Both the position numbers and the translations under genes were made by a program. Under the pieces are notes generated by a model. It saw only the letters and a program-made list of their open reading frames with translations. It was not told the DNA's origin and made no database searches. From Glaciihabitans sp. (lineage in GTDB: Bacteria; Actinomycetota; Actinomycetes; Actinomycetales; Microbacteriaceae), in assembly GCA_025465535.1 (NCBI GenBank), contig JAODMY010000027.1, positions 1 to 62,273 on the forward strand: a stretch of 62,273 nucleotides of DNA, given 5' to 3'. Of this stretch, positions 44,552 through 62,273 are shown in pieces (the stretch's first letter is position 1; each line of letters opens with the position of its first letter).

Positions 44552-45426
44552 AGTGAACCTCGCGTCTTCGCACCGAACAGGCCCCGTGGACGAATCAGAA
44601 GCACCAGGAGCAACACGATGAAGAATGTAAAGTCCGACCAGATCGGGGAAGCCAGCGCCGAGACCACGGATGATCCGACGCCCATGACGAGGGCGGCGAC
44701 GACCGATCCACCGATGCTTCCAAGGCCGCCGAGAACCACGATTGTCAGCAATCGGCTGATCAGGTCATAGTGGCTGCCCGGGTTGAAAGAGTTCAACATC
44801 CCGAAGACGGAGCCGGCGGCGGCAGCAGTCGCGGCCCCCAGCCCAAAGCCGAGCGCGGAGACACGCTGCGAATTGACTCCGAGCAACTGTGCCGACATCG
44901 GATTCTGCACGGTTGCCCGAACCGACCGACCGAACTTCGTGCGCTGAAGAATCAGGTACAGGACTCCGAGCATCACAAGGGAGAGAACGAACGCCACAAG
45001 TCGCACGAGGCTGATCTGGTATCCGAGTACGGTCCAGCTGAAGTTCGCGTACGTCGGCTGGACGTTCGTCAGTGTCGCCCCGTAGACGAACGACAGCGCG
45101 CCCTCGAGTCCCAACGCCACGGCGAAGGTCACGAGGAGAGAGAGTTGCCCGATGTCATCGCCGTGCAGCGGGCGCAAGAGCACCCACTGCACGCCGACGC
45201 CGACCGCGAACAGGATCGGCGTGGTGATCAGGATCGAGAGGAAGGGATCGATACCGAGCGACGTGAACAGCGAGTAGGTGAGATACGCGCCCAGGACGAC
45301 GAGGGCACCCTGCGCGAGGTTCACCACCTTCATGACGCCGAAGATCAGCGTCTGTCCGCTCGCCATCAGCGCATAGACGCCGCCGGTGAGGATCCCGAGA
45401 ATAATTGCCTGAATGAGAGCGTGCAT
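44548..45426 (-). CDS. livH: Branched-chain-type ABC importer permease LivH
   Basis: A 292-residue permease from ATG 45426 with eight helices and the conserved LivH regions (GQTLIFGVMKVVNLAQGALV near the start; VRATVQNPMSAQLLGVNSQR in the coupling loop). It follows the binding-protein gene by 17 nt. Substrates of this family include branched amino acids, amides, urea and aromatic acids. Confidence 0.93.
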   Translation of the reverse strand: MHALIQAIILGILTGGVYALMASGQTLIFGVMKVVNLAQGALVVLGAYLTYSLFTSLGIDPFLSILITTPILFAVGVGVQWVLLRPLHGDDIGQLSLLVTFAVALGLEGALSFVYGATLTNVQPTYANFSWTVLGYQISLVRLVAFVLSLVMLGVLYLILQRTKFGRSVRATVQNPMSAQLLGVNSQRVSALGFGLGAATAAAAGSVFGMLNSFNPGSHYDLISRLLTIVVLGGLGSIGGSVVAALVMGVGSSVVSALASPIWSDFTFFIVLLLVLLIRPRGLFGAKTRGSL

Positions 45427-45443
45427 TGTTAAGCGACCCCGAC

Positions 45444-46700
45444 CTATCCGGCCCAGTTGGGCTTAGGTGCCAACGGAGACGCCTGGGCGGTCTTTGCCGG
45501 ATAGACAGTGGTCAGCTTGTTGTTGATCCACTGAACTAGCAGGTAGGCACCCTTCGGCGCCCCGTACTGATTCCAGCTGAGGTTGCCGACGAGCGTCGGC
45601 CACGTGCCGGAGTGCAGGGTCTTGATGATCGTCGCGTTGTCGACCTTGCCGGTCTTCTTGGCGACCTGCTGGACGAGCATCCCAGCCGAATACGCTTCCG
45701 CCGATGTCGGGTCGATCTGCTGGGCGGTTCCGCCGTACTTCGCTGTGTAGGCGGCGATGAACGCCGAGCTGCCGGCGACGGTCGAATCCGCGTACCAGTC
45801 AGCGCTCGAGAACACGCCGGCCGTGTTGGCCAGGCCGACGGCCGCGGGGAAGTCCCCCGGCGAGTTGGCACCGTTTGCCTCGTAGAGCCACTTCGGGCTG
45901 AACTTCAGCTGGATCATGGCCTTGACCTGGGCGAAGGCGTCGGCCTCCTGCGTGCCGCCGATGACGACATCCGGATTCTTCGCTGCGATCGCGGAGATGA
46001 TCGGAGTCATGTCGGCCGTCTCAGCGGGGTAGGTCTGGTCGTAGACCGTCTTGATCCCCGCGGCCTCGAAGCGCTTTTGGATGTTCGCAGCGATCGGCGC
46101 GGAGAACGGATCATCCAGCTTGGCGTAGGCCGCGGTCTTGGGACGCTCAGACGCCGGGAGGGAAAGGATGTAGTCGGCGAACACATCGCCGCCCGCCGTA
46201 GTTGGAGCGGGCTGTACGAAGAACAGGTTCTTCAGCTTCTGCGCGAAGACCGTTGGCCCGCCGCCGGCCGACTCGATGAACGCGTATCCGTAGCGATTCG
46301 CGACGCGGGAGGACGGCACAGTCAAGAGGCTTGAGAACGGCCCGAAGACGAGATTCACCTTGTCCTGGGTGATCAGCGTCGTGTAGTTGGTGACCACCTG
46401 GTCGGGACTCGACGCGTCGTCCACAATCGTGAGCTGGACCTTGCGGCCGAGTATGCCGCCCGACTTGTTGACGTCGCTGGCCCACAGGTCGTACCCGCGC
46501 TGCGCTGCCTTTCCGGAGTCAGAGAAGTCGCCCGTAAGGGAGAGCGAGATACCAATTTTCAGCGGACCGGCCGAGGTAGTTTTGCCGCTCGTTCCGGCGG
46601 TGCACCCGGCCAGGGCCACGGTTGCGGCGAGCACAGCGCCGATTGTGATCAAGCGGCGGGGATGCCGCGCTGCTGACTTGCGAATTCGTAGATGCATCAT
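45444..46700 (-). CDS. ABC importer substrate-binding lipoprotein (LivK/Leu-binding type)
   Basis: A 418-residue type I periplasmic-binding-fold protein with a lipoprotein signal (VALAGC, Cys about 33). Mature part: KIGISLSLTGDFSDSGKAAQ, GILGRKVQLTIVDDASSPDQ, VFGPFSSLLTVP, and so on. AGGAG precedes ATG 46700 or 46697. The pocket cannot be read as leucine-specific; amide, sulfonated or aromatic acid ligands are possible. First gene of the liv operon; its promoter carries a LacI-type box. Confidence 0.92.
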   Translation of the reverse strand: MMHLRIRKSAARHPRRLITIGAVLAATVALAGCTAGTSGKTTSAGPLKIGISLSLTGDFSDSGKAAQRGYDLWASDVNKSGGILGRKVQLTIVDDASSPDQVVTNYTTLITQDKVNLVFGPFSSLLTVPSSRVANRYGYAFIESAGGGPTVFAQKLKNLFFVQPAPTTAGGDVFADYILSLPASERPKTAAYAKLDDPFSAPIAANIQKRFEAAGIKTVYDQTYPAETADMTPIISAIAAKNPDVVIGGTQEADAFAQVKAMIQLKFSPKWLYEANGANSPGDFPAAVGLANTAGVFSSADWYADSTVAGSSAFIAAYTAKYGGTAQQIDPTSAEAYSAGMLVQQVAKKTGKVDNATIIKTLHSGTWPTLVGNLSWNQYGAPKGAYLLVQWINNKLTTVYPAKTAQASPLAPKPNWAG

Positions 46701-46772
46701 TGCTCCTAACGGACGGACAATCGCTTAGACCTGGCGAGAGCGCTTGCTACATTGCAAACTCCGGTAGAAACC

Positions 46773-46784
46773 GCAATCGTTTGC
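46773..46784 (-). promoter_or_regulatory. LacI-type operator at liv promoter
   Basis: GCAATCGTTTGC (minus strand GCAAACGATTGC) abuts the predicted -10 of the liv operon and covers its start site. Box 1 of five fitting GCAAnCGnTTGC. Confidence 0.75.
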
Positions 46785-46816
46785 ATTACATTCCCACCAG
46801 ATTGCTAGCGTGTCAA
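46785..46816 (-). promoter_or_regulatory. liv operon promoter
   Basis: On the minus strand TTGACA (46816-46811) and TGTAAT (46790-46785) are 20 nt apart; the -35 is consensus, the spacer is long. The LacI-type box follows at once. Confidence 0.55.
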
Positions 46817-46935
46817 GAGATTCCGGGTCGCTGACCATGAGAAATCCCGATTTCTGTGAGCCCTTTCAGAATTGAACTGAGCAAAACCGAGGTTTCCCCG
46901 CGGATAACCGTCTCGGCGTGAAACTCGTTGATCAC

Positions 46936-46947
46936 GCAACCGATTGC
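46936..46947. promoter_or_regulatory. LacI-type operator 2
   Basis: GCAACCGATTGC, with matching flanks (CGCAA-N4-TTGCG), lies 163 bp upstream of box 1 and 43 bp past the lacI-type stop. The spacing allows looping with box 1. Confidence 0.7.
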
Positions 46948-46990
46948 GCTTACTTAGTCAGTTCTCGATGCCACGGCGGGCGGATCCTGA

Positions 46991-48043
46991 TTACAAGGAC
47001 GTCGGGAAATCGACAGCCGACCCGCCACTGACGGGCCCCGTCGACGAGCGCACGATGAGCGACACCGGCAGGGTGATCCGCACCTGCTCCTGCACTCCGG
47101 CCTCAATACTGCGCAGCAGAAGCCGAGCGGATTCTGTTCCCATGTCGAAGGTTGGCACCCGCACTGTCGTCAGCGGCGGAGCGAAATCCTCGGCGAAGAT
47201 CATGTCGTTGAAACCAATGACCGAGACATCTTCCGGGCAACGGAGCCCGTGCGACTTCATCGAACGCAGGGCTCCGAGGGCCAGAAGGTCATTACCGCCG
47301 ATGACGGCCGTGGGGCGCATCCCATTCTCGGCGAGGACGTCATCCATCGATCGCTGCCCGGCCTCGATGCTCAGCGACGCGGCCTCGATGACGCGGCCTC
47401 GCACTCCACGGATGCTGTCGCAGCTCGTGGTGAAGGCCTCCGAACGAACGACGCTTGTCGAGAGGTTGAACGGACCCGCGATGTGCAGGATCTCGCGATG
47501 TCCGAGCTCAACCAGATGATTGACGGCCGCCGCAATCCCGCTCGCGTCGTTACCGGTCACGAGCGGATACGGGATCGACTCCGCCTCGCGGTTGAGCATC
47601 ACAGCCAGGACATTCGCCTCAAATGCGCGCGCGACGACGGTCTGGTCGCCGTGGCGTCCAGTCGCGAAGATGAACCCGTCAACCCGCCGCTCAAGCAACG
47701 ATTCGAAAGCGGCAACCTCAATGGCGTCGTGGCCGTCGGTGTTGGCGAGCAGCGCCGTGTATCCCCTCGGCTGCAGGAAGTTCTCGATACCGCGGATGAC
47801 CGGAGGGAAGAAGGGATTCGTGAGGTCGGGGATGATGACGCCGATCGTCATCGACAGGCTCGTGCGGAGCCCGCGTGCCATCACGTTCGGGACGTAGCCG
47901 AGCTGACGGGCAGCGCGCTTGATGCGCTTCGCAGTCTCAGAGCTGACCTGATGCTCCGTCAGGGTGTTGAGCGCGCGGGAGACCGTCGCCTTGTGCACAT
48001 TGGCGAGTTTGGCAACATCGTCAATCGTGGTCCGCCTGTTCAT
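46991..48043 (-). CDS. LacI-family transcriptional regulator
   Basis: A 350-residue regulator from ATG 48043: LacI helix-turn-helix (TIDDVAKLANVHKATVSRAL) and hinge helix (residues 1-62), then a periplasmic-binding-type effector domain (IGVIIPDLTNPFFPPVIRGI onward). It overlaps the MFS gene by 4 nt and sits directly before the liv operon. Boxes GCAAnCGnTTGC, the usual LacI/GalR shape with central CG, lie at the liv, aldehyde dehydrogenase and beta-propeller promoters, so it is the likely master regulator of this island. Confidence 0.93.
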   Translation of the reverse strand: MNRRTTIDDVAKLANVHKATVSRALNTLTEHQVSSETAKRIKRAARQLGYVPNVMARGLRTSLSMTIGVIIPDLTNPFFPPVIRGIENFLQPRGYTALLANTDGHDAIEVAAFESLLERRVDGFIFATGRHGDQTVVARAFEANVLAVMLNREAESIPYPLVTGNDASGIAAAVNHLVELGHREILHIAGPFNLSTSVVRSEAFTTSCDSIRGVRGRVIEAASLSIEAGQRSMDDVLAENGMRPTAVIGGNDLLALGALRSMKSHGLRCPEDVSVIGFNDMIFAEDFAPPLTTVRVPTFDMGTESARLLLRSIEAGVQEQVRITLPVSLIVRSSTGPVSGGSAVDFPTSL

Positions 48044-49137
48044 TCCCTGACACGATAGCGGGATCGGGCCGCCGAGGCGACGATCGCGAAAACCGCCGCG
48101 CCGAAAGCCGCGCTGCCGAACAGTACCGGGAATTGCCCATCCGAGGCAGCGATACCACCGAGCGCGGCACCAAGCGATCCCCCGGCGAACAGCGCGATTG
48201 AGAAGAATGACATTCCGATCGCGCGACCATCGTGAACCGCATCCGTCATCCAGGTCTGGATTGTGGTGTGCCCGAGCGTCCACGCGAGCCCCAGAAGGGC
48301 GGCGGCACCGAGCACACTGAACGGCGAAACGACCAGTGTCAACACCACGTATCCTGCGCACCCGGCGCACCCCGCGAGAAATAGAAGCAGCCACGACGGC
48401 CATCGGCCAAGCACCAGTTTCATGAGCTGGCTCACCAGCACGACGGTGATGCCGAATGCCGCAGTAACCAGACCCGCGATGAGCACGCTCGTGCCGCTGG
48501 CCTGCAGTGCGATGGGCAGCGACGCGAAAACCCCAACGAGCAGAACTCCCTCGAGAACTGTGAATGCGAGTACCCCGAGCGCCCACCCGTTTCGCCCGAG
48601 TCGGCGGATTGAGGGCAGAACGCGCTCCCCCGGCGGGGGCGGCACCGCGGGCAGGCGCGCGAGGATGATCGCAAGCACGACGGATGCGACCGCGACTACC
48701 GCGTAGACCCAGCGCCAGCTCGAGAGTTGGGCGATGAGCCCCGCGCCGATCGTGCCAGCGGCGAGTCCGAGCGACACCGCGCCGGCGAGGTTCGCCGTCG
48801 CGACGGCGCGCTGTTTCATCGTCATGGTGTCGCCGAAGTGAATGAGCACCGCGGTAAACGTCGCAGCGAACGCTCCCCCGGCGATACCGCGCGCGACGAG
48901 GAAACCGACAGGGTCAGGGGCAAGCGCACTCGCCAGATCTGCAAGCCCCGCGATCCCGGTCGAGATCGCGAGAAGTCGAACGCGGCTGTGACGCGTCGCG
49001 AGTGCACTCCAGACCAGTTGCAGACCGGCATACGCAAGCGAATAGATGGTGACCGCCGCGGCGATCAGCGCCAACGACGTACCCATGTCTTTCGCGACGA
49101 CCGTTACCAGTGGCGGCGTCACCGAGCGATCGACCAT
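48040..49137 (-). CDS. MFS transporter
   Basis: A 12-helix carrier of at least 365 residues (DRSVTPPLVTVVAKDMGTSL; QLMKLVLGRWPSWLLLFLAG in the second half). The first possible ATG (49137) is inside the first helix: the same frame continues upstream as an Ala/Ile/Val-rich stretch (ALIAAAFVS) with no ATG, GTG or TTG before the aldehyde dehydrogenase frame. Either a rare start is used or the N-terminus has been lost. Coupled to the LacI gene, 50 nt after the dehydrogenase stop. Confidence 0.82.
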   Translation of the reverse strand: MVDRSVTPPLVTVVAKDMGTSLALIAAAVTIYSLAYAGLQLVWSALATRHSRVRLLAISTGIAGLADLASALAPDPVGFLVARGIAGGAFAATFTAVLIHFGDTMTMKQRAVATANLAGAVSLGLAAGTIGAGLIAQLSSWRWVYAVVAVASVVLAIILARLPAVPPPPGERVLPSIRRLGRNGWALGVLAFTVLEGVLLVGVFASLPIALQASGTSVLIAGLVTAAFGITVVLVSQLMKLVLGRWPSWLLLFLAGCAGCAGYVVLTLVVSPFSVLGAAALLGLAWTLGHTTIQTWMTDAVHDGRAIGMSFFSIALFAGGSLGAALGGIAASDGQFPVLFGSAAFGAAVFAIVASAARSRYRVRE

Positions 49138-49187
49138 GGAGACGAACGCTGCGGCGATGAGGGCCGCGCTCCCCGCCGAGGCGGGGC

Positions 49188-50699
49188 CTACGCGCGCGGC
49201 GGCCAGGATGGGATCTCGCCTCGGCGGGAAGGAAACCGCACGTTCTTCGACCAGACGAATTCGTGCAGGGTCTCGACCGCGTTCTCTCGGCCGAATCCGC
49301 TTCCCTTGATTCCGCCGAACGGGGCTCCGAGAAACGAGCGACGCATGTAGTTGTTAACGAAAATCATCCCGGCCTCGAGACGCTGCGCTATGTGCCACGC
49401 CTCGCCCTCATCGCGGGTACAGATCGCGGCCGTAAGCCCGTACTCCGTGCCGTTGGCGATCTCGATGGCTTCGTCGATCGTGGAATAGCGCATGATCAGC
49501 GCGATCGGTCCAAAGATTTCTTGCTGGCCGACCGTCGAATCCGGCTTCACATCCGCAAGCACAGTCGGGGGGACCCAGTAGCCGTCCCTGTACTTCTCGT
49601 CCGTCGGCACTGTGCCCTGGCCCACGATCCGAGCACCCTCGTCGAGAGCGGTCTGCAGGAAGCCGACGACTCGATCGCGCTGCTTCTCATCAACCATCGG
49701 ACCGATGTCGGTTGCGGGATCCAGTCCGTCACCAACGACGAGGCCCGTGGCGATCTTCGTGAACCGTTCAAGGAACTCGTCATAGATGTCGTCGTGCAGC
49801 AGGATGCGCGCGGTCGATGTGCAGGCCTCGCCCTGGTTGTAAAACATTCCTTCGATCGCGACGCGCAGGGCGTCGTCGAGGTCGGCATCCGGGAGGACCA
49901 TGAGCGAGTTCTTGCCGCCGAGCTCCATGGTTGAAAAGGTGAGGTTTTCGGCTGCCGACGCGAGAACGCGGCGACCCGTGGCTGTGGCCCCCGTGAACGT
50001 GATCCGCCTGACGTCCCGATGAGAGGCGAGCGCGGCACCGGCGGCAATCCCAGGGACCGCGTTGAGGACACCGGGCGGAAGCACCTCGTTCGCGATCTCG
50101 ACGAGGCGAAGCACCGTCAGAGGAGCCTGCTCGCCCGGCTTGATGACGACCGTGTTACCGGTTACGAGGGCGGGCGCCGACTTCTTGGAGAAGTGAATCG
50201 GCGGCCAGTTGAACGGCAGGATCGCTGCGACGACTCCGTACGGCTCATATATAACGCGAGCCTCGATCGGTCCCTGGTCGATGATCTCACCGGGAAGCGT
50301 GTCGGCGAGGCCGGCAAAATAGTCGAACGCCGAATGGCTGAACACGATGTCGTTAAGGCTCGCATCGCGTCGAGGCTTGCCGTTTTCGCGGGACTCCAGC
50401 GTGCCGAGCTCATCCAGGTGCTCACGGATCGCCGCGGCTACCTTGCGAAGGTAAACGCCACGCTCACGAGGGGAGAGTGCGGCCCAGGCCGGCTGCGCCC
50501 TGCGAGCCGATTGCACCGCCTGGTCGACGAGCGCGTCATCCGCGGCGACCACCCTGGCGAGTAGCGCTGCGGTCGACGGTTCCCTCACCTCGAACGTCGG
50601 CGATGACCCGACATCGATGAACTTCCCGTCAATGAATGCACCCCAGACCTGGCGATCGAGGGGCGGGTGGTCAGCCGATTCGGCCTTTGGCAGCGTCAT
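49188..50699 (-). CDS. Aldehyde dehydrogenase (NAD(P)+)
   Basis: A 503-residue enzyme with catalytic Cys293 (GEACTSTARIL), general-base Glu259 (MELGGKN) and Asn164 (LPFNWPP). The C-terminal GGIKGSGFGRENAVETLHEF is typical of benzaldehyde/vanillin-type and related ALDHs. It oxidises an aldehyde to an acid in the cytosol; substrate unknown. GGGAG precedes ATG 50699, and a perfect LacI-type operator lies 25 nt upstream. Followed by the MFS and LacI genes in one transcript. Confidence 0.93.
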   Translation of the reverse strand: MTLPKAESADHPPLDRQVWGAFIDGKFIDVGSSPTFEVREPSTAALLARVVAADDALVDQAVQSARRAQPAWAALSPRERGVYLRKVAAAIREHLDELGTLESRENGKPRRDASLNDIVFSHSAFDYFAGLADTLPGEIIDQGPIEARVIYEPYGVVAAILPFNWPPIHFSKKSAPALVTGNTVVIKPGEQAPLTVLRLVEIANEVLPPGVLNAVPGIAAGAALASHRDVRRITFTGATATGRRVLASAAENLTFSTMELGGKNSLMVLPDADLDDALRVAIEGMFYNQGEACTSTARILLHDDIYDEFLERFTKIATGLVVGDGLDPATDIGPMVDEKQRDRVVGFLQTALDEGARIVGQGTVPTDEKYRDGYWVPPTVLADVKPDSTVGQQEIFGPIALIMRYSTIDEAIEIANGTEYGLTAAICTRDEGEAWHIAQRLEAGMIFVNNYMRRSFLGAPFGGIKGSGFGRENAVETLHEFVWSKNVRFPSRRGEIPSWPPRA

Positions 50700-50723
50700 T
50701 GCTACTCCCTTAGTTATTCGTGT

Positions 50724-50735
50724 GCAACCGGTTGC
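50724..50735 (-). promoter_or_regulatory. LacI-type operator at aldehyde dehydrogenase promoter
   Basis: GCAACCGGTTGC is a perfect 12-bp palindrome 25-36 nt upstream of the ALDH start. A TATTAG -10 (50753-50748) puts the transcript start about 6 nt before it, so a bound repressor would block elongation or initiation. Confidence 0.8.
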
Positions 50736-50806
50736 GGTGGAAGTACTCTAATATCGCGAATCCCGGTGAGCAGCGCACCGCGAGCGGCCATTCACCAGCT
50801 CGGAAG

Positions 50807-52144
50807 CTAAATCAGGATCGACAGCGGGTTCTCGATGCGCTTCACGAATGCCGCCATCCACGCCGCCGCGACGGCTCCGTCAATCACGCGATGATCCGCC
50901 GACAACGTCACGGTCATGACGGTCGAAACAGCGAGTTCGCCGTCGCCGTCAACCACCGGCCGCGGCTTCGCTGCGCTGACAGCGAGGATGCCGGACTGCG
51001 GCGGATTGAGGATGGCCGAGAACTCGTCGACCCCGTACATCCCGAGATTGGAGATCGAGAAGGCACCACCCTCGAGCTCCTCCTGGCGAAGTCGGCCGGC
51101 TCTCGCGCGCTCCGCCAGTTCGGCGACTGTGGCGCTGATCTGGCCGAGTGTCGCGTTGCCCGCATCCCGAACGACCGGGGTCAGGAGCCCGTCGTCGACC
51201 GCGACGGCAACCGCGATGTCGACTCGATCGAACCGACGGATGTGGTCACCGCCCCAAATCGAGTTCGCGGCGGGAATCTCCACCAGCGCACCAGCGACGG
51301 CCTTGATCACGAAGTCATTGACCGAGATCTTGCGTGGCGCGGTCTCGTTGATCTCGCGACGCAGCGCGAGCAGCTTGTCGACGACGGGGTTGGCCGTCAG
51401 GTAGAAGTGCGGAACCGTGGTCTTGCTCTCGGTGAGCCGTCTCGCGATGGCTCGCCGCATCCCGGTCAGCTTGATGTCGGTGAATCCCGCGTCGGCCGCG
51501 GCTGAAGCTGGCGCCGACGGTGTTGTCGCCGGAATTGATGTCGCTGGTGTTGATGTCGCCGGAGTCGCTGCCTCCGGTGCCACCGCGGTGACACCGTCGA
51601 GGTCGCGTCGGACGATGCGCCCGCTCGGACCGCTGCCGACGATCGAGCCGAGGTCGAGCCCGCGCTCCTTCGCCAGCCTGCGGACGATCGGGCTCGCGAA
51701 GAGGCGACCGTCGGTGTTGACCAATTCGGTGCTGGTGCCGGATGGCGCGGTGCCAGCCGGAACGGCGGTTGGCGCAGCAGCTGCGGATTCCGGCGCAGGC
51801 TCGGAAACGGGGGCAGCCTCGACCGGCGCGGGCGCGGCAGCGGCGTCATTCCCGACGGCAACTCCCGCGGCTTCGAGCGCCGGACCGATCTGGTCCTGCC
51901 CTTCGCCTACGGCCAGGATCACGGCAATCGGCGTTCCGACGACGAGGTTGTCGCCCTCCTGCGCGAGCAGTTTTCCGACCGTTCCCTCGACCTCGGCCGC
52001 GTACTCGACGATGGCCTTCTCTGTCTCGATCTCGACGAGGGGATCACCGATGCTGATGCTCTGGCCCTCGGTGGCGAGCCAGGTCTGGATGGCACCCTCG
52101 TTGGCGTTGGCCATCACCGATGGCATCCGCACGACGGTGGCCAT
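50807..52144 (-). CDS. Dihydrolipoamide acyltransferase (E2) of a 2-oxoacid dehydrogenase
   Basis: A 445-residue E2: lipoyl domain 1-78 with Lys43 in ETEKA, Ala/Pro linker, E3/E1-binding domain about 147-182 (ASPIVRRLAKERGLDLGSIV), a second Ala/Thr/Pro linker, and the catalytic domain 220-445 with SADHRVIDG (His/Asp active site). It carries one lipoyl domain. Start ATG 52144 overlaps the E1 stop by 1 nt (TGATG). The acyl group made is unknown (acetoin, pyruvate or branched acid type). Confidence 0.94.
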   Translation of the reverse strand: MATVVRMPSVMANANEGAIQTWLATEGQSISIGDPLVEIETEKAIVEYAAEVEGTVGKLLAQEGDNLVVGTPIAVILAVGEGQDQIGPALEAAGVAVGNDAAAAPAPVEAAPVSEPAPESAAAAPTAVPAGTAPSGTSTELVNTDGRLFASPIVRRLAKERGLDLGSIVGSGPSGRIVRRDLDGVTAVAPEAATPATSTPATSIPATTPSAPASAAADAGFTDIKLTGMRRAIARRLTESKTTVPHFYLTANPVVDKLLALRREINETAPRKISVNDFVIKAVAGALVEIPAANSIWGGDHIRRFDRVDIAVAVAVDDGLLTPVVRDAGNATLGQISATVAELAERARAGRLRQEELEGGAFSISNLGMYGVDEFSAILNPPQSGILAVSAAKPRPVVDGDGELAVSTVMTVTLSADHRVIDGAVAAAWMAAFVKRIENPLSILI

Positions 52145-54333
52145 CAGTGTCCTCCCATTGCGGCGCGCACGACTTCGAGGCCGGCGACGACCTCTTCCGT
52201 CTTCGCGATCGCGGCCCGCTCGAGCACCTTCGAGATGCTGGGCGACGCCTCTCTCCCGGTCACCCGCTGGATCGGTTGGTCGAGCCAGTCGAAGAACCGG
52301 CGCTGGATTTCATCCGCAAGCCAAGCTCCGTACGACGTGCCGCGCTGGCCCTGCTCCACGATCAGAACCGCGTTGGTCTTCTTGATGCTCGCGCCGATGG
52401 TGTCCCAGTCCAGCGATGCGCGGTCGAGCCAGCGCAGGTCGATGAGTTCGGCATCCATCCCGGTCTGCTCGATGGCTTCGAGCGAGTGGCCGACCATCGA
52501 GAGGTAGCTGATGACCGTGACGTCCGACCCCTCGCGCCGGATCGCGGCCTTGCCGGGCGGAAGGATGTAGTCGAGGTCGCCGTCTGGAACCTTGTCAGCC
52601 TGGCTGTAGAGATCCACGTGTTCGATCACCAGCACGGGGTCCTGCAGGGCGAGTGCCGCGTTCATGAGCCCGACGTAGTCGGCGGCGTTCGATGGGGCGA
52701 TGATCCGCCATCCCGCCGCGGTTGCGAAGATGCCGGCCGGATCCATTAGGTGCTGGGATCCGTAGCCCGACCCCATCGCGACCTTGGTTCGCAGGACGAG
52801 AGGCATGTCGTTATCGCCGCCGAACATGTGCCGCGCCTTGCCGATCTGGTTGAAGACCTGGTCGGCGGCGACCCACATGAAGTCCGGGTACATGAACTCG
52901 ACCACCGGGCGGAACCGGCCGTCGAGCGCGAGCCCGCCGCCGAGGCCGACGAACGCGTTCTCACTGATGGGTGTGCCCATGATGCGATCGGGTCCGTACT
53001 TCTTGACGAGTCCCTTTGTCGCACCGTTCGTGCCACCGTTCAGCCGGTGGACATCCTCGCCCATGACGACGATTCGCTCGTCCTGCTCCATCCGGCGGTC
53101 CATCACGGCAGCAATGGCCTCCACGAACTTGGTCTCGCGCCAGGCACCCGTGTGTTCGGTCGGATCGAGCACGGTCAACGACTCGAGCTCGCTCCCGTCG
53201 CTGCGGATGCCGACATCCACGAATCCGGGATCGGGCCACAGCTCCGGGCGGATGCGCCGCTTGCCGGTGTTGTCCGGGTCGGCCTCGACGAGGGCCGCGA
53301 CCGCGAGCTCCATGGCGGCCTGTGCCTGCTCGCGGACTCCGTCGGCCTCCTTTTCGCCGAGGAGTCCGAGCTTGCCCATCTCCGTGGCGACGCGCGTGAG
53401 TGGATCGCGCTTGCGCCACTGCGCCTCCTCGTCCTTGCTGCGATAGCCGAAGGCGCTGCCGGGGTAAGGGCCGTTCTGGTGGAAGAAGCGGTAGACCTCG
53501 GCCTCGACGACCGCCGATCCCTCGCCCGAGCGCAGGCGCTCGCCGGCCTCGAGCATCGCGAGGTGAACGGCGAGCGGATCCATGCCGTCGACCCGCCAGC
53601 CCGGAATGCCGAAACCCTGCCCGCGCACCGACAGGCGCGTGTCCGCAACGACCTCCTCGACGTTGGTCGACACGGCGTAGAGGTTGTTCTCGATGAAGAA
53701 GGCGAGCGGCAGCTTCCAGGCCGCTGCGAGGTTCATGGTCTCGAGAACGGATCCGATCTGGCTCGATCCGTCACCGAAATAGCTGACCGTCAGGTCTTTC
53801 GTGCCGGCGTGCTTTTGCGCCCAGGCATTGCCGGCCGCGAACGGAACGCCACCACCGACGATCGCGTTGGTGCCGAGTGCGCCGGCCTCGAGCCACTGGA
53901 GATGCATCGACCCACCGCGGCCACCTGAGAAGCCCTGCGAGAGGCCGAGGATCTCGGCGAGGGTCCGCTGGAGCAGCGCCTGGACGTCATCGGTCACGAG
54001 CTTGCCGAGGTCGAACTTTCCGTCGGTGACGTGGGTGAGCGCCTTCGCGAGGAACTGGTGGTGGCCGCGATGCGACCCGGTCACGCCGTCCGCTGTGCCG
54101 AGTCCGATGATCGAACCGACGGCGCCGCCCTCCTGGCCGATGCTCGAGTGCGCCGGGCCGTGCACGAGGCCCTCGCCAGCCAGCTCGAGGACGCTCTCCT
54201 CGAAGGCGCGAATCAGGTGCAGTTCTGCGAGCATTCCGGCGAGCAGCGCAGGGTCGGCACCCTTCCAGTCCGCGGCGGTGGTCGAGAGCTCGATCCAGTC
54301 CGCCCCAGTTTCCAAACGGCGTCGTTTTGGCAT
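52144..54333 (-). CDS. Fused E1 alpha-beta subunit of a 2-oxoacid dehydrogenase
   Basis: A 729-residue fusion. Residues about 25-380 are the thiamine-diphosphate alpha part (GHHQFLAKAL; ThDP motif GDGSSQ at 187-192 to NN at 216-217), and about 395-729 the beta part (VVMGEDVHRLNGG, GTPISENAFVGLGGGLALDG, PSNAADYVGLMNAALALQDP). Separate alpha and beta chains are the norm. It decarboxylates a 2-oxo acid or cleaves a diketone/acetoin and loads E2. No E3 or lipoate ligase is in the window. First gene of the minus-strand run, divergent from the VOC gene. Confidence 0.93.
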   Translation of the reverse strand: MPKRRRLETGADWIELSTTAADWKGADPALLAGMLAELHLIRAFEESVLELAGEGLVHGPAHSSIGQEGGAVGSIIGLGTADGVTGSHRGHHQFLAKALTHVTDGKFDLGKLVTDDVQALLQRTLAEILGLSQGFSGGRGGSMHLQWLEAGALGTNAIVGGGVPFAAGNAWAQKHAGTKDLTVSYFGDGSSQIGSVLETMNLAAAWKLPLAFFIENNLYAVSTNVEEVVADTRLSVRGQGFGIPGWRVDGMDPLAVHLAMLEAGERLRSGEGSAVVEAEVYRFFHQNGPYPGSAFGYRSKDEEAQWRKRDPLTRVATEMGKLGLLGEKEADGVREQAQAAMELAVAALVEADPDNTGKRRIRPELWPDPGFVDVGIRSDGSELESLTVLDPTEHTGAWRETKFVEAIAAVMDRRMEQDERIVVMGEDVHRLNGGTNGATKGLVKKYGPDRIMGTPISENAFVGLGGGLALDGRFRPVVEFMYPDFMWVAADQVFNQIGKARHMFGGDNDMPLVLRTKVAMGSGYGSQHLMDPAGIFATAAGWRIIAPSNAADYVGLMNAALALQDPVLVIEHVDLYSQADKVPDGDLDYILPPGKAAIRREGSDVTVISYLSMVGHSLEAIEQTGMDAELIDLRWLDRASLDWDTIGASIKKTNAVLIVEQGQRGTSYGAWLADEIQRRFFDWLDQPIQRVTGREASPSISKVLERAAIAKTEEVVAGLEVVRAAMGGH

Positions 54334-54407
54334 GCGTTAGGTCTTTTCGTGTTCGCGGCGCGCTGCGATGCGCACAGGGTGGCTTTCCGGAAAAGCTACC
54401 CCACGAT

Positions 54408-54420
54408 TGAATCCAATACA
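54408..54420. promoter_or_regulatory. Putative GntR box 1
   Basis: TGAATCCAATACA lies in the 200-nt divergent region between the E1 and VOC genes. It shares TGnATCCAAT with box 2. Confidence 0.4.
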
Positions 54421-54469
54421 AGTGGAATGGAGCGTTTTCACTGGCATTTGCCCGCTAGTTACGCGATGA

Positions 54470-54482
54470 TGTATCCAATCAA
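54470..54482. promoter_or_regulatory. Putative GntR box 2
   Basis: TGTATCCAATCAA is a direct repeat of box 1, 62 bp away (about six helix turns). GntR/FadR boxes often have an ATnGGATnCA half-site; the GntR protein at 55082 is the likely binder. Inference only. Confidence 0.4.
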
Positions 54483-54533
54483 GGTATTTTCGATAACGTC
54501 TGTTCTGAGAGAAACACGACAAGGAGGTCACTC

Positions 54534-55064
54534 ATGGCTCACGGGATCCCCGGGTTGCGAGGCACGGATCACATCGGCGTCACGGTGCCAGATCTTGACG
54601 AGGCCGAGCGGTTCTTCGTGGACGTCCTCGGCGCAGAGTCGATCTATACCCTTGGCACCAAACGGGCCGACGACGACTGGATGCACGTCCACATCGGGGT
54701 CGACCCGCGCACGATCATCCGCGAGATCCGCTTCTACCGACTCGGCAACGGCACGAACTTCGAGGTGTTCAAGTACGAGGCCGCCGACGGACAAAAACCC
54801 CAGCCGAGCAACAGCGACATCGGTGGCCACCACGTTGCCCTCTACGTCGACGACATGGCCGCGGCGATCGCCTATCTGCGCACGCACGGCATCGAAACCA
54901 TGGGCGATCCGACCGCGAGCAAGCAGGCCGCGGAGGGCCAGTACTGGGTGTACTTCCGCAGCCCGTGGGGCATGCAGTTCGAGCTCGTGAGCTTCCCCGC
55001 CGGCAAGGCCTACGAGGCGACCGCAGCAGTGAAACTGTGGCATCCATCCCACCCGGCCGAGTGA
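54534..55064 (+). CDS. VOC superfamily (glyoxalase/dioxygenase-fold) protein
   Basis: A 176-residue two-module VOC protein with metal-ligand candidates His13, Glu77, His99/His100 and Glu150 (TDHIGVTVPDLDEAERFF; GGHHVALYVDD; MQFELVSFPAG). AAGGAGG lies 8 nt before ATG 54534. It may be a lyase, isomerase or small dioxygenase acting before the 2-oxoacid dehydrogenase or dehydrogenases. GntR follows 17 nt later on the same strand. Confidence 0.85.
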   Translation: MAHGIPGLRGTDHIGVTVPDLDEAERFFVDVLGAESIYTLGTKRADDDWMHVHIGVDPRTIIREIRFYRLGNGTNFEVFKYEAADGQKPQPSNSDIGGHHVALYVDDMAAAIAYLRTHGIETMGDPTASKQAAEGQYWVYFRSPWGMQFELVSFPAGKAYEATAAVKLWHPSHPAE

Positions 55065-55081
55065 GAGGCACGCACGGCAGA

Positions 55082-55753
55082 ATGGATGACATGACCCTCA
55101 ATTCGCCTACGCACGGAGCGGCGGGCGCGCGCATCGCCGCCGAGTTGCGCGAGGCGATCCTCACGGGCGAGCACCCGCCGGGCGCACGCATCCGCCAGGA
55201 AGATCTCGCCGGTCGGCACGGCGCGAGCAGGCTTCCCGTGCGCGAGGCCCTACGGATGCTCGAGGCCGAGGGCCTCGTCACCCTCGTCGCGAACACCGGC
55301 GCCTGGGTCGCGCAGCTCAGCCTCGCCGAGTGCGAGGAGATGTACCAGATCCGTGAGCGCATCGAGCCGCTGCTGCTGAGGTTCAACATCCCGCTGCTCA
55401 GTGAGGAGTCGATCGACAATCTCGAGGTCCTCGCCGACGCTATGGAGGTCTCGGAGGACGTCGAGCAGTTCCTGCGCCTCGACCGCGAGTTCCACCTCTC
55501 CTGCTACACGGCCGCGCAGACGAGCGTGCTCGGCGATACCGTGCTGCAACTCTGGAACCGCACGCAGCACTACCGCCGCGCGTTCACCCGGGTATTCCGG
55601 TCGGAGGGCGACCGGAGCGTCCACCACGAGCACCAACTGATGGTCTCCGCCATCCGCCGCCGCGACGTCGACGAGGCCGAGCGGATCCTGGCCGGCCACA
55701 TCCGCCGCACCCGCCTCGAGCTGGTCCGGCATCCCGACGTATTCGAGAACTGA
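55082..55753 (+). CDS. GntR/FadR-family (FCD) regulator
   Basis: A 223-residue regulator: winged helix with IRQEDLAGRHGASRLPVREALRMLEAEGLV (about 35-65; shown here only as its class motif) and an all-helical FCD domain with metal-site residues in LDREFHLSCY, HEHQLMVSAI and AGHIRRT. It follows the VOC gene by 17 nt and precedes the dehydrogenase gene by 24 nt, so it likely controls this operon and the divergent E1/E2 genes. ATG 55082 or 55091 is the start. Confidence 0.92.
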   Translation: MDDMTLNSPTHGAAGARIAAELREAILTGEHPPGARIRQEDLAGRHGASRLPVREALRMLEAEGLVTLVANTGAWVAQLSLAECEEMYQIRERIEPLLLRFNIPLLSEESIDNLEVLADAMEVSEDVEQFLRLDREFHLSCYTAAQTSVLGDTVLQLWNRTQHYRRAFTRVFRSEGDRSVHHEHQLMVSAIRRRDVDEAERILAGHIRRTRLELVRHPDVFEN

Positions 55754-55777
55754 AACACCACAACGAAGGAGCACGCA

Positions 55778-57154
55778 ATGGCCATCGCGACCATCAATCC
55801 GACCACCGGCGAGACCGAGAAGGAGTTCGCCGCACACGACGCCGCCGAGGTGGATCGCCGAATCGGCGAGGCCGTCGCCGCCCACAGGGCGCTGCACGAC
55901 ACCACCTTCGCGCAACGGGCAGAGTGGATGCGCGCCTCGGCCGACATCCTCGAGAAAGAAGCCGACGAGACGGCGAGGATGCTGGTCGTCGAGATGGGCA
56001 AGCCGATCGCGCAGGCGAAGGCCGAGGTCCTGAAGTGCGCGAAAAACCTGCGCTTCTATGCCGAGAACGCCGAGCAGTTTCTCGCCGACGAACCGCTCGC
56101 CGATCCCTCGAGCGTGACCGCTTCCGCGGCGTACGCGCGCTACCAGCCGCTCGGCGTCGTGCTCGCGGTCATGCCGTGGAACTACCCGCTCTGGCAGGTC
56201 ATCCGCTTCGCCGCACCCGCGCTCATGGCCGGCAACACGGGCATCCTGAAGCACGCCTCGAACGTGCCGCAGTCGGCGCTGTTCCTCGACACGATCTTCG
56301 AGCGGGGCGGATTCCCGGTCGGATCGTTCCGCGCTCTGCTCATCGGTTCGCGTGAGGTGAAGGCTGTTCTCGAAGACCCGCGGGTCAAGGCCGTCACACT
56401 GACCGGTTCGGAGCCGGCCGGGCGATCCGTCGCCGCGATCGCCGGCGAGCAGATCAAGAAGAGCGTGATGGAACTCGGCGGGTCCGATCCATTCATCGTG
56501 ATGCCGAGCGCCGACCTCGAGAAGGCTGCGACCACCGCGGTCAAGGCGCGCATCAGCAACAATGGCCAGTCGTGCATCGCGGCCAAGCGCTTCCTCGTGC
56601 ACACCGACATCTACGACGCGTTCGCGAAGCTGTTCGCCGAGAAGATGTCCGCCCTCGTCGTCGGCGACCCCCTGGACGAGAAGACCGACGTCGGTCCGGT
56701 CGCGACCGCGTCCGGACGTTCAGACCTCGCCGAGCTGGTGGATGACGCCGTCGCCAAGGGCGCGAAGGTCCTGGCCGGCGGCAGTGCGATCGAGGGACCA
56801 GGATTCTTCTACCAGCCGACCGTCCTCAGCGAGCTGACCGACTCCATGCGCATCGTGCTCGAGGAGACCTTCGGCCCGGTCGCATCCCTCTACCGCGTCG
56901 CCGACCGTGAGGAGGCGATCCGCATCGCCAACCAGACCACGTTCGGGCTCAGCTCCGCGATCTGGACGCAGGATGCCGACGAGGAGGCGTACTTCGTCAC
57001 CGAGCTGGATGCGGGCGCGGTCTTCGTCAACGGCATGACGGTCTCCTACCCCGAACTGCCCTTCGGCGGCATCAAGGCGTCAGGCTACGGGCGCGAGCTC
57101 GCCGCCGCCGGCATCCGCGAGTTCACCAACCTGAAGACGGTCTGGAAGGGCTAA
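55778..57154 (+). CDS. NAD(P)-dependent succinate-semialdehyde-type dehydrogenase
   Basis: A 458-residue ALDH of the GabD/Sad group: Asn135 (MPWNYPLWQ), Glu232 (MELGGSDPF), Cys266 (NNGQSCIAAKRF), C-term GGIKASGYGREL. The start MAIATINPTTGE is typical. It oxidises succinate semialdehyde or a like aldehyde, giving a path into the TCA cycle. AAGGAG precedes ATG 55778. A palindromic repeat follows the stop. Confidence 0.93.
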   Translation: MAIATINPTTGETEKEFAAHDAAEVDRRIGEAVAAHRALHDTTFAQRAEWMRASADILEKEADETARMLVVEMGKPIAQAKAEVLKCAKNLRFYAENAEQFLADEPLADPSSVTASAAYARYQPLGVVLAVMPWNYPLWQVIRFAAPALMAGNTGILKHASNVPQSALFLDTIFERGGFPVGSFRALLIGSREVKAVLEDPRVKAVTLTGSEPAGRSVAAIAGEQIKKSVMELGGSDPFIVMPSADLEKAATTAVKARISNNGQSCIAAKRFLVHTDIYDAFAKLFAEKMSALVVGDPLDEKTDVGPVATASGRSDLAELVDDAVAKGAKVLAGGSAIEGPGFFYQPTVLSELTDSMRIVLEETFGPVASLYRVADREEAIRIANQTTFGLSSAIWTQDADEEAYFVTELDAGAVFVNGMTVSYPELPFGGIKASGYGRELAAAGIREFTNLKTVWKG

Positions 57155-57170
57155 AGCCCCACAAAAAACG

Positions 57171-57240
57171 CTGTCTGCCCCCGTGTGATGCGTGTGCCCC
57201 CGTACGTACGGGGGCACACGCATCACACGGGGGCAGACAG
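57171..57240. repeat. Perfect 70-bp palindrome, family copy 2
   Basis: Left arm 57171-57205 and right arm 57206-57240 are exact reverse complements with no loop. The arm is built of CTGTCTGCCCCCGTG, TGATGCGTGTG and CCCCCGTAC blocks. It follows the succinate-semialdehyde-type gene. Confidence 0.97.
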
Positions 57241-57309
57241 GGATCCCATAGGACGGATGACGGTCCCGCGCGAGACTCCGCGGACTTTCGGGCGTGTCCG
57301 GCTGATTCA

Positions 57310-57321
57310 GCAACCGTTTGC
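57310..57321. promoter_or_regulatory. LacI-type operator, distal
   Basis: GCAACCGTTTGC lies 90 bp upstream of the box at 57400, in front of the beta-propeller/ABC operon. A looping pair with that box is plausible. Confidence 0.65.
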
Positions 57322-57363
57322 GGTCGGAAATTGGATTGCGCGCCGCGAATTGCATAAGTGCCG

Positions 57364-57392
57364 TTGACAAGCTGGCCGAATGGCGGTTAGCG
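57364..57392 (+). promoter_or_regulatory. Promoter of beta-propeller/ABC operon
   Basis: TTGACA (57364-57369), exactly 17 nt, TTAGCG (57387-57392). Transcript start would be near 57399, at the edge of the LacI-type box 57400-57411. Confidence 0.6.
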
Positions 57393-57399
57393 TCACAAT

Positions 57400-57411
57400 G
57401 CGAACGGTTGC
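57400..57411 (+). promoter_or_regulatory. LacI-type operator at beta-propeller promoter
   Basis: GCGAACGGTTGC fits GCAAnCGnTTGC with one mismatch and starts at the predicted first transcribed base. The same 12-mer also occurs inside the kinase gene at 38383-38394, so a single hit alone is weak evidence. Confidence 0.6.
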
Positions 57412-57452
57412 AGTTTTGCAGCAAATTTTCTTCAACGTTGAGGAGCTAGTCA

Positions 57453-58625
57453 GTGTCGACACCCGTCCCATCAGCGCGTGACCTTATTCAGGTCGCTCAC
57501 CATGATCTCGGCGGTCGTTCTGACGGCATGCAGGTGGTGCGAAATGGCAACGCGCTCTACATCGGCCACACGGGAACGACCGGTGCGGGTACCTCGATCC
57601 TCGACGTCACCGACACGCGCAACCCGCGACTTGTCACGCAGTGGGATGCTCCGGCCAACACTCACACGCACAAGGTGCAGGTCGCCGAGGGCCTTCTGCT
57701 GGTCAACCACGAGAAGTTTCCTTACCGCGTTCCGCCGAAGGGTCCGGTCTCGACGGGCGTTGCGATCTACCGCCTCGACGACCCGCTTGCCCCCGAGCAG
57801 ATCGCGTTCTGGGACTGCGGCGGCCTCGGAGTGCACCGCATCGTCTGGACCGGTGGGCGATACGCCCACATGTCGGCGACGCCGGCCGGGTACCGAGACC
57901 GCATCTGGGTCGTGCTCGACCTCGCGGACCCGGCGCATCCGGTCGAGGCCGGCCGTTGGTGGTGGCCGGGCCAGGCCGAGGACGAGACACCCGAGTGGCC
58001 AACCAGCCAGCGCTGGGCCGCACACCACGCACTGATCGACGGCGACCGCGCCTACCTCGGTTTTGACGACGCCGGCATGGTCATCCTTGATGTCCGCGAC
58101 CTGTCGAAGCCAAAGACCATTGCCCGTCTGAGCTGGGATGGCGGCGCGACCCACACTTGCATGCCGCTGCCGAGCCGCGGCGTCGTGATCGTGACCGACG
58201 AGCAACAACACGATGGCCCGCACGCGCCAGAGCGCACCATCCGGGTCATCGACGTCACTGCGGACCCGCGGGTGATCGCCAAGGTTCCCGCGCCCGAGGG
58301 CAATTTCGATGAACTTCCCATGCGCTACGGCGCACACAACCTGCACGAGAACCGCGCGGGTTCCTATCGCAGCGACCGGCTGATCTTTTCCACCTGGTTC
58401 AGCGCAGGCGTTCGCGTCCACGACCTCAGCGACCTTGAACAGCCGCGCGAAATTGCGCACTGGGTCGGCGAAACGCCTGCCGGCCAGCAGGCTCCCCAGT
58501 CCAACGACCTGTGGGTGGATGACGATGCCAATATCTGGGTTACCGACCGGATCGGTGGCGGCCTCGCCGTCCTCGAGCCGGACCAGGCGCTCAGGAACCA
58601 GATGGAAGAGCTGCGGGCCGAATGA
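57453..58625 (+). CDS. LVIVD-type beta-propeller protein
   Basis: A 390-residue protein from GTG 57453 (GAGGAG 8 nt upstream) made of repeated four-strand blades (STGVAIYRLDDPLAPEQI, AGMVILDVRDLSKPKTIARL, AGVRVHDLSDLEQPREI) with many conserved His and Asp (NTHTHKVQV, AAHHALIDG, GGATHTC, GAHNLHENR). The His pattern could hold a metal, as in some metallo-propellers, but this is a guess. It has no signal peptide and is coupled (4-nt overlap) to an ABC permease, so it likely processes or senses the imported compound. Confidence 0.82.
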   Translation: MSTPVPSARDLIQVAHHDLGGRSDGMQVVRNGNALYIGHTGTTGAGTSILDVTDTRNPRLVTQWDAPANTHTHKVQVAEGLLLVNHEKFPYRVPPKGPVSTGVAIYRLDDPLAPEQIAFWDCGGLGVHRIVWTGGRYAHMSATPAGYRDRIWVVLDLADPAHPVEAGRWWWPGQAEDETPEWPTSQRWAAHHALIDGDRAYLGFDDAGMVILDVRDLSKPKTIARLSWDGGATHTCMPLPSRGVVIVTDEQQHDGPHAPERTIRVIDVTADPRVIAKVPAPEGNFDELPMRYGAHNLHENRAGSYRSDRLIFSTWFSAGVRVHDLSDLEQPREIAHWVGETPAGQQAPQSNDLWVDDDANIWVTDRIGGGLAVLEPDQALRNQMEELRAE

Positions 58626-59401
58626 GTGAAGTAATGAACCGTAGGACGACGCGGCACCGCCTGCGCGTGCTGTCCGGATACGTTGGCGGAGTCCTCCTCG
58701 GCGCCGTCCTCTGGCAGGTCATCGGCACGATCGCGCCGCACGAGGTCTTCGACTCGCTCAGTGACACGCTCGCGCGGCTGTGGCAGATCATCCTCGACGG
58801 GACGCTGGGAACGGCGCTCTGGACATCGTTCCAGACCTATCTGGTCGGCATGGTGTTCGCACTGATCATCGGCGCATTCGGCGGCCTGCTCCTTGCACGG
58901 CGCCAACTGTTGCGCATCGCGCTGGAGCCGTACGCCATCGCGCTGTACGCGACGCCGATGGTCGGCATCATCCCGTTCCTGCTCGCGCTGCTGGGGTTCG
59001 GATTCTGGCCGAAGGTCGTCGTGATCATCCTGTTCGCGTTCTTCCCTGTGCTTCTGAACACGCAACGCGGCGCCCAGAGCATCTCACCGGAACTCCTCGA
59101 CGTCGCCCGCGTCTACCGAACGCGCGAGCGCGATATCTGGAGGCACGTCATCCTCCCGTACACGCTCCCATTCCTGATGACGGGCGTGCGGCAATCACTC
59201 GCCCGCGGCCTGGTCGGGATGATCGCTGCCGACTTCTTCCTCAGCTCTGACGGCCTCGGAGGTTTGCTGATCACCGCCTCCGAGCGCTTCGATACCGCCG
59301 AGATGCTCGCAATCACGCTGGTTATCACGGTGATTGGCCTGGCACTCATGGCCATCGGCCGCGCCCTCGAGAACCATTTCGCACGCTGGAGGGTCGGATG
59401 A
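58622..59401 (+). CDS. NitT/TauT-type ABC importer permease 1
   Basis: A 259-residue permease with six helices and the EAA loop (SPELLDVARVYRTRERDIWR) of nitrate/sulfonate/taurine and pyrimidine-precursor importers. Overlaps the propeller gene and the next permease by 4 nt each. Confidence 0.92.
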   Translation: MSEVMNRRTTRHRLRVLSGYVGGVLLGAVLWQVIGTIAPHEVFDSLSDTLARLWQIILDGTLGTALWTSFQTYLVGMVFALIIGAFGGLLLARRQLLRIALEPYAIALYATPMVGIIPFLLALLGFGFWPKVVVIILFAFFPVLLNTQRGAQSISPELLDVARVYRTRERDIWRHVILPYTLPFLMTGVRQSLARGLVGMIAADFFLSSDGLGGLLITASERFDTAEMLAITLVITVIGLALMAIGRALENHFARWRVG

Positions 59402-60234: not shown

Positions 60235-60236
60235 CG

Positions 60237-62185: not shown

Positions 62186-62238
62186 GTATCTGTGTGCGGT
62201 CCATGCAGTGCGCGGGTGGGTCCGAGGCACCGAGATAC

Positions 62239-62273
62239 CTGTCTGCCCCCGTGTGATGCGTCTGCCCCCGTAC
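62239..62273. repeat. Palindrome family copy 3, cut by window edge
   Basis: These last 35 nt equal the left arm of the 57171-57240 palindrome with one base change (GCGTC for GCGTG). The other arm must lie outside the window. Confidence 0.85.

Follow-up and report, generated by a model that had tools for sequence, protein, structure and literature searches.

A predicted LacI-family regulon linking two importers to catabolic genes in Glaciihabitans sp.

INTRODUCTION

A 62,273-nucleotide stretch of DNA from Glaciihabitans sp. (assembly GCA_025465535.1, contig JAODMY010000027.1; here called the window) carries a lacI gene lying between two importer operons and surrounded by five 12-bp palindromic boxes. 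The question raised by this locus is whether the boxes are operators of the neighboring repressor and, if so, which genes they control. An earlier note on this DNA proposed that one LacI protein controls both importers, the genes for a major facilitator superfamily (MFS) transporter and an aldehyde dehydrogenase, and its own synthesis. Our analysis indicated that the genome has at least 10 such boxes at eight predicted promoters, the five of the window among them. The LacI protein encoded at 46991-48043 very probably acts on these boxes as a repressor that binds and hinders RNA polymerase close to the transcription start, with release by an effector that is probably not a sugar. LacI regulators are textbook sugar sensors, hence the interest of a nonsugar case.

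RESULTS

The pattern GCAAnCGnTTGC was matched perfectly at four positions in the window (46773, 46936, 50724 and 57310), with no other perfect match in the 62 kb, and with one mismatch at 57400 (Table 1). These positions agreed with those given in the earlier note, as did the spacings of 163 and 90 bp between distal and proximal boxes. By their coordinates, the proximal boxes of liv, ALDH1 and the propeller gene were 73, 25 and 42 bp, respectively, from the start codons. No box at up to one mismatch was present between 50736 and 57309, and the E1, E2, VOC, GntR and ALDH2 genes are thus unboxed. One-mismatch sites outside the cluster were present in the window at 29683 and 38383.

Table 1. Coordinates of genes, boxes and the contig-end overlap in the window
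Feature	Position	Strand	Description
livK-livH-livM-livG-livF	42023..46700	-	Branched-chain-amino-acid-type ATP-binding cassette (ABC) importer; livK at 45444-46700
Box GCAATCGTTTGC	46773..46784		Predicted proximal operator of liv; 3 bp past the weak -10 of TTGACA-17-GAATGT, minus strand
Box GCAACCGATTGC	46936..46947		Distal; 163 bp from the liv box, 43 bp beyond the lacI stop
lacI	46991..48043	-	Predicted 350-amino-acid LacI-family repressor; recognition helix VHKATVSRALN, effector-pocket motif GFND
MFS transporter	48040..49137	-	Between ALDH1 and lacI
ALDH1, aldehyde dehydrogenase	49188..50699	-	Closest curated models BADH and HpaE, below cutoff
Box GCAACCGGTTGC	50724..50735		Predicted operator of ALDH1-MFS-lacI; 9 bp past TAGAGT
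E2 and fused E1 alpha-beta of 2-oxoacid dehydrogenase	50807..54333	-	Within the span, no box
VOC, GntR/FCD regulator, ALDH2	54534..57154	+	No box; ALDH2 of succinate-semialdehyde type, above curated cutoff
Box GCAACCGTTTGC	57310..57321		Distal; 90 bp from the propeller/ABC box
Box GCGAACGGTTGC	57400..57411		One mismatch; predicted proximal operator of propeller/ABC; 6 bp past TTGACA-18-TAGCGT
LVIVD1	57453..58625	+	LVIVD repeat (beta-propeller-like), PF08309 just above cutoff; heads the second importer operon
Two permeases, ATPase, NMT1-type binding protein	58622..62133	+	NitT/TauT-type ABC importer
Contig-end overlap	62231..62271		41 bases identical to the first 41 of contig C86

A scan of the whole genome (3,097,585 bases) detected eight perfect sites: the four in the window, three on contig C86 and one on contig C121. 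Those on C86 (at 2355, 3497 and 4828) preceded an operon for a hydroxyacid dehydrogenase (HIBDH) and an M24 protein, an alpha/beta hydrolase gene and a second LVIVD propeller gene, and a one-mismatch box in the same stretch (L009:4961) preceded the gene for a second substrate-binding protein. The C121 site, at 13697, was about 230 bp before a gene for a CrtO-like flavin adenine dinucleotide (FAD) oxidoreductase. With 57400 and L009:4961, both of which carry one mismatch, the genome therefore has at least 10 boxes at eight predicted promoters. Contig C86 most likely continues the window contig (C93), as indicated by the 41-base identity and by the arrangement in the sister genome G027 (L091), in which SBP1, the ortholog of the last gene of the window, adjoins M24-HIBDH-box-hydrolase. 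The FAD oxidoreductase is the least certain target, given the distance of its box; the enzyme was 91% identical to one adjoining liv and lacI in relative G058 (L081). Taken together, C86, C121 and the gene order in relatives place all eight perfect sites before genes of one cluster. Half of the eight fell within about 10.6 kb, an arrangement with a binomial chance of about 1e-8.

Conservation was examined in 199 genomes, including that of the window, with a LacI ortholog defined by E ≤ 1e-60. Orthologs were detected in 12 other genomes, and stretches of 5.8 to 19.9 kb around each lacI gene were fetched. A perfect box was present in the lacI stretch of 11 of these 12 relatives, with G103 having one-mismatch boxes only. 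The stretches contained 20 of the 51 perfect boxes of the 12 genomes, versus 0.38 expected; two of the 20 were near a second lacI gene (46%) of G002. Of the 13 genomes with lacI (the window genome included), 10 had a liv operon in that stretch, each time behind a box, perfect in eight and with one mismatch in two (G014 and G103), and this box was kept even where the liv genes were only about 30 to 50% alike. The 12-mer of the liv box was identical before liv in G027, G001, G002, G107, G058 and G179, and a liv operon on a separate contig of G027 also had a perfect box (L089). HIBDH orthologs occurred in 11 of the 13 genomes and had a promoter box in every case (seven perfect, four one-mismatch), and perfect boxes were found ahead of ALDH1 orthologs in G027 (L078:7216), G048, G103 and G058. 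Orthologs of the M24 protein at ≥68% identity were present in 11 of the 13 lacI genomes versus 4 of the 186 others (Fisher test, 2.8e-13); this amounts to 15 genomes at that identity, and to 20 of 199 at E ≤ 1e-120. Two arrangements were particularly compact. In Yonghaparkia sp. Root332, the lacI, liv, amidohydrolase, RidA and HIBDH-M24 genes were consecutive and accompanied by two boxes, one of them perfect and the other with one mismatch (L027), and in a Pseudonocardiales metagenome-assembled genome (L029), a perfect box lay between divergent lacI and liv genes, with HIBDH ending the liv operon. Genomes G027, G048 and G078 also appear under the labels L025, L026 and L027, respectively, and each was counted once. 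The regulon is conserved across genomes, with a box at orthologous promoters that tracks the regulator. Such conservation, which the earlier note had proposed as a check, was found for liv, ALDH1, HIBDH and other genes, and also near more distant LacI homologs of 39 to 47% identity.

The earlier note had placed a proximal box straight after the -10 element at all three window promoters. This geometry was borne out at liv and at the propeller gene and applied only loosely at ALDH1, where the -35 element is poor (Table 1). A wider comparison used 50 boxes, picked by eye together with their orientation from zero- and one-mismatch boxes beside recognized genes; boxes without such neighbors (for example, L087, L090, L095-L097 and L099-L102) and most boxes of distant loci were omitted. 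Oriented toward the target gene, a TTGACA or TTGACG hexamer preceded the box by 28 to 37 bp in 18 of the 50. Shuffled upstream sequence gave a mean of 0.19 and a maximum of 3 in 2,000 trials, and the opposite orientation gave 0. A search of the window genome for TTGACA-N24-31 followed by a relaxed box returned five hits, all at promoters of the box set, versus none for the reversed control. Most of these boxes started 3 to 6 bp past the best -10 element and so would cover the transcription start, and in G023, G078 and G014 the box sat between the -35 and -10 elements. Sites covering the start and sites in the -35/-10 spacer are both classic blocking positions. Within the 50 boxes, G was absent from the fifth position and C from the eighth, and T and A were favored in the flanks, giving TGCAAnCGnTTGCA. 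The central CG was present in all 50, but the selection pattern, at up to one mismatch, itself contained CG.

The product of 46991-48043 matched PF00356 (54.6 bits; cutoff, 27) and PF13377 (117.7 bits; cutoff, 26.5) and is, as judged from these matches, a full-length LacI-family protein with a helix-turn-helix and a periplasmic-binding-like effector domain. All 19 NCBIfam equivalog models listed (RbsR, CcpA, GntR, PurR, UriR and others) fell below cutoff, the best being RbsR at 235.9 versus 382. In a tree of 18 LacI rows, the protein grouped with those of G027 and G048, and the sister group comprised G001, G002, G058 and G107. The nearest PDB relatives were CcpA and RbsR, which share its domain order and align over the full length (E, about 3e-42); CcpA also has the Ala in the recognition helix, and its sites are of the AAnCGnTT type. 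Two features set the window protein apart. The first is its helix, which begins VH where CcpA and RbsR have VS. A homolog search scored 7,999 candidates, and residues were counted in the query and the best 120 of 2,214 homologs: His17 was present in 118 of these 121 sequences, whereas CcpA and RbsR have Ser. The VH start was also found in all 13 other subfamily rows and in 14 of 16 distant helices read, while VS started 11 other LacI helices of the window genome (11 read of 13). The second feature is the effector pocket, with ND in place of the DN or DD of CcpA and RbsR. Asn279 of the GFND motif was present in all 121 close sequences and in 15 of 16 distant ones read, L142 being without it; CcpA and RbsR have Asp. 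In LacI, RbsR and PurR, this position contacts the ligand. The rows left unread were the paralogs L022 and L024, two distant helices, one of which was later read, and the effector motif of L129. Together with the list of targets, Asn279 suggests an effector that is not a sugar, which would be unusual for LacI.

Several observations weigh against the regulon as described. The perfect sites were not enriched genome-wide (8 versus 14 for the reversed pattern), and the reversed-pattern control was also the higher in many of the 199 genomes. At up to one mismatch there were 131 sites in the genome; one-mismatch sites are therefore common, and two members of the set, 57400 and L009:4961, each bear a mismatch. 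The earlier note had named occurrence at a chance rate as a finding that would count against it, and genome-wide the boxes do occur at background rate; in the window, sites at up to two mismatches numbered 47 versus 38 ± 6 expected. Box number was accordingly rejected as evidence, the count not being above its control. At least one perfect match was present in 150 of the 199 genomes, and other LacI proteins must thus share the core motif; the window genome itself encodes 14 LacI proteins. Some M24 genes were without a perfect box in the sequence around them (G037 and G088, 19.9 kb; G085, 11.2 kb; G108, 4.2 kb), and no perfect box was found at a remote M24 locus of G035, far from lacI. Near its M24 gene, G037 has both a LacI relative of 38% identity and a liv operon, the latter with a one-mismatch box some 180 bp ahead of livK. 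Some perfect boxes were near no recognized target (on G027:C34, G027:C97 and G107:C2), and 32 of the 50 chosen boxes, a sample picked by eye, had no TTGACA or TTGACG at the set distance.

Since the count was unenriched, support for the regulon comes from where the boxes lie and from their conservation, and a one-mismatch box by itself weighs little. A chance clustering of a common palindrome would fit the genome-wide count, which did not exceed its control. It is contradicted by the clustering of the sites, their conservation at orthologous promoters and the promoter geometry, and we regard it as extremely improbable.

The boxes could also be real LacI operators bound by one or more paralogs, with the neighboring lacI gene being one of many. 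The 14 LacI proteins of the genome speak for such an arrangement, as do the similar helix of one paralog (L020, VSIATVSRAL) and the presence of the core GCAAnCGnTTGC in 150 of 199 genomes, although only 13 genomes have this LacI at E ≤ 1e-60. However, the other 13 lacI loci of the window genome (about 3 kb each) had no perfect box, and a one-mismatch site was present at two of them. Boxes at up to one mismatch were found near the LacI subfamily in 12 of 12 relatives (11 perfect) and at 17 of 17 distant loci (12 perfect). Binding by paralogs is therefore very unlikely. The regulon reading, in which the neighboring LacI is the repressor, is preferred because of the clustering, the recurrence of boxes near orthologous lacI and target genes, the promoter geometry and the subfamily's own recognition helix.

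The two distal boxes at 46936 and 57310 require a separate explanation. The earlier note had suggested that they form loops with the proximal boxes. This idea gained no support, a further point against the original interpretation: a second, one-mismatch box before liv in G048 lay 135 bp from the first, and spacings of 163, 90 and 135 bp share no helical phase. The distal boxes may serve as auxiliary operators, or they may remain from genes that have since been lost. If they are leftovers of rearrangement, the window may retain just two such boxes. In G001, G002 and G107, lacI lies between the liv box and the HIBDH box, and the missing common phase is consistent with leftovers. A broken second lacI remnant was observed between two boxes beside liv in G027 (L089:2106-2434, on G027:C42), which shows how box pairs can arise. 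Against this origin, blastn of the window interval detected clear similarity around the liv box only and not around the distal box, and neither blastn nor translation of the interval gave a trace of a lost lacI gene. Two boxes are also kept before the much diverged liv operon of G048, and no such rearrangement history was seen for 57310. An origin of the distal boxes as leftovers is thus a tentative possibility, and somewhat doubtful. Another distal box may perhaps be present on C121, where a one-mismatch box, GCAATCGATCGC (L010:8476), was observed 222 bp farther upstream than that of the FAD oxidoreductase.

An evenly drawn sample of 396 genomes of the phylum was then considered. Besides the window genome, 15 genomes held 17 LacI homologs of 39 to 47% identity, and a perfect box was present within about 1.5 kb at 12 of the 17 loci, with one-mismatch boxes only at the other 5. 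Neighboring genes included HIBDH, livK/livH, LVIVD, tauB, hydrolase and E1, and parts of the same gene set recurred in eight stretches that were mapped more widely. In G453:C15 (L149), boxes were paired 13 bp apart (2551/2564 and 7938/7951), each pair having one perfect and one one-mismatch member, near tauB-like and liv-like genes. On balance, we lean toward a subfamily of LacI proteins across the phylum, marked by the helix VHx[AG]T[VA]SRALN and the pocket GFND, acting as master repressor of an uncharacterized, noncarbohydrate catabolic network. In such a network, Liv-type and TauABC-type importers would be tied to enzymes of several kinds (M24, hydroxyacid dehydrogenase, C-C hydrolase, beta-propeller and FAD oxidoreductase). 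The compounds handled may be N-heterocycles or small amides related to them, and the operator map would reveal the members of the pathway.

DISCUSSION

The distribution of boxes suggests the following model. In the absence of inducer, LacI at or near the start sites would keep its targets off. The predicted targets are liv, ALDH1-MFS-lacI, LVIVD1 with the TauABC-type importer, and HIBDH-M24, followed by the alpha/beta hydrolase, LVIVD2, the second binding protein and the FAD oxidoreductase. Uptake of the compound would generate the inducer, which may be the imported compound itself or a breakdown product, and release of LacI would free the targets. One repressor would in this way couple two different importers to a single oxidative or hydrolytic pathway. 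The start of lacI overlaps the stop of the MFS gene by 4 bp, and ALDH1-MFS-lacI looks like one operon behind box 50724; autoregulation of a single transcript is thus likely, and the repressor, encoded behind ALDH1-MFS, would limit its own amount. Both the binding of the boxes by this LacI and repression through that binding are predictions from sequence. As a prediction, the proposal of one LacI for both importers, the MFS and ALDH genes and itself was upheld, although it was too narrow in the number of targets, with at least eight predicted promoters on three contigs, and too wide in its span, since the 2-oxoacid dehydrogenase and VOC-GntR-ALDH2 operons lie inside it with no box. Those two operons were rejected as direct targets in the window for this reason, and the E2-E1, VOC-GntR-ALDH2 and M24 module is away from any perfect box in G037, G088 and G035. 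The two operons may answer to the GntR protein encoded between them.

Nearly all LacI regulons serve sugars, and this one might serve a sugar-acid pathway. In the published survey PMC4052901, carbohydrate pathways are controlled by 176 of the 182 LacI groups to which a pathway was assigned. The best score of HIBDH, below cutoff, was to tartronate-semialdehyde reductase, and a gene for an HpcH/HpaI aldolase adjoins the FAD-oxidoreductase box on C121. Yet no perfect box preceded the HpcH gene in the fetched stretch. Among the box-linked genes of the genome, none was recognized as encoding a sugar-type importer, kinase, isomerase or glycosidase, the importers are of the Liv and NitT/TauT types, and Asn279 replaces the Asp of CcpA and RbsR. 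We consider a sugar-acid pathway unlikely and retain a nonsugar effector as the preferred reading.

The regulon otherwise resembles the local LacI catabolic regulons described in PMC4052901. An even palindromic operator with a central CG is given there as the rule of the family and 13 bp as a peak in the spacing between sites; the first is matched here, and the second is seen in G453. Boxes shortly before start codons, a repressor gene beside its targets and several boxes per promoter are also shared. The differences are the lack of recognizable sugar genes, two importers of nonsugar type and about eight promoters.

The enzymes offer partial hints to the pathway. The box-linked hydrolase (L009:2401-3495) had as its best match 2,6-dihydroxypseudooxynicotine hydrolase (PDB 2jbw; E, 1.7e-45), no nicotine genes being shown here. 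For the box-linked M24 protein (L009:141-1388, on C86), the best NCBIfam model was the dimethylsulfoniopropionate lyase DddP, at 100 bits versus a cutoff of 600, and the protein was not assigned to DddP. Its residues 23-407 aligned with PDB chains 4s01, 4rzy and 4b28, annotated "Peptidase M24" and presumably DddP-type chains, and prolidases outscored these over the C-terminal half. It stands as an orphan M24-fold enzyme kept behind HIBDH and a box. In relatives, the gene set also includes an amidohydrolase and a RidA-type protein. As a substrate, a small acid, amide or heterocycle that contains nitrogen would fit, although this is speculation. Families, solved relatives and the literature gave no substrate name. 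A search limited to titles and the beginnings of abstracts found no item naming the regulon or pathway, which is not proof of absence in print, and a term search of the Pontimonas genome paper found no passage on a LacI regulator.

If the proposal is true, a widely conserved subfamily guarding two importers and enzymes of amide, acid and ring type would widen the sensing range of the LacI fold. The boxes would list coregulated genes and outline an unknown pathway with orphan families among its members, such as the LVIVD propellers and the M24 proteins. The system seems to be present in cultured strains (for example, Yonghaparkia sp. Root332), so that inducer screens are directly feasible.

Some minor features of the locus were also recorded. 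The livK gene was named by profile and solved relatives, and livH, livM, livG and livF were named by order and similarity. The lacI gene was split or had an in-frame stop in G014 (L076:9542-10538), G103 (L083) and G001 (L074), through sequencing error or decay. A palindromic repeat (CTGTCTGCCCCCGTGTGATGCG and its complement) was found downstream of ALDH2 at 57171-57240, at 62239-62273 and at L009:9-75; the 41-base overlap of C93 and C86 lies inside it, and the repeat may have caused the assembly to stop between the two contigs. At 52144-54333, E1 alpha and beta are fused into one 729-amino-acid protein whose gene adjoins VOC-GntR in several relatives as well, and this fused-E1 module can occur without lacI boxes (L154, L155 and L157).

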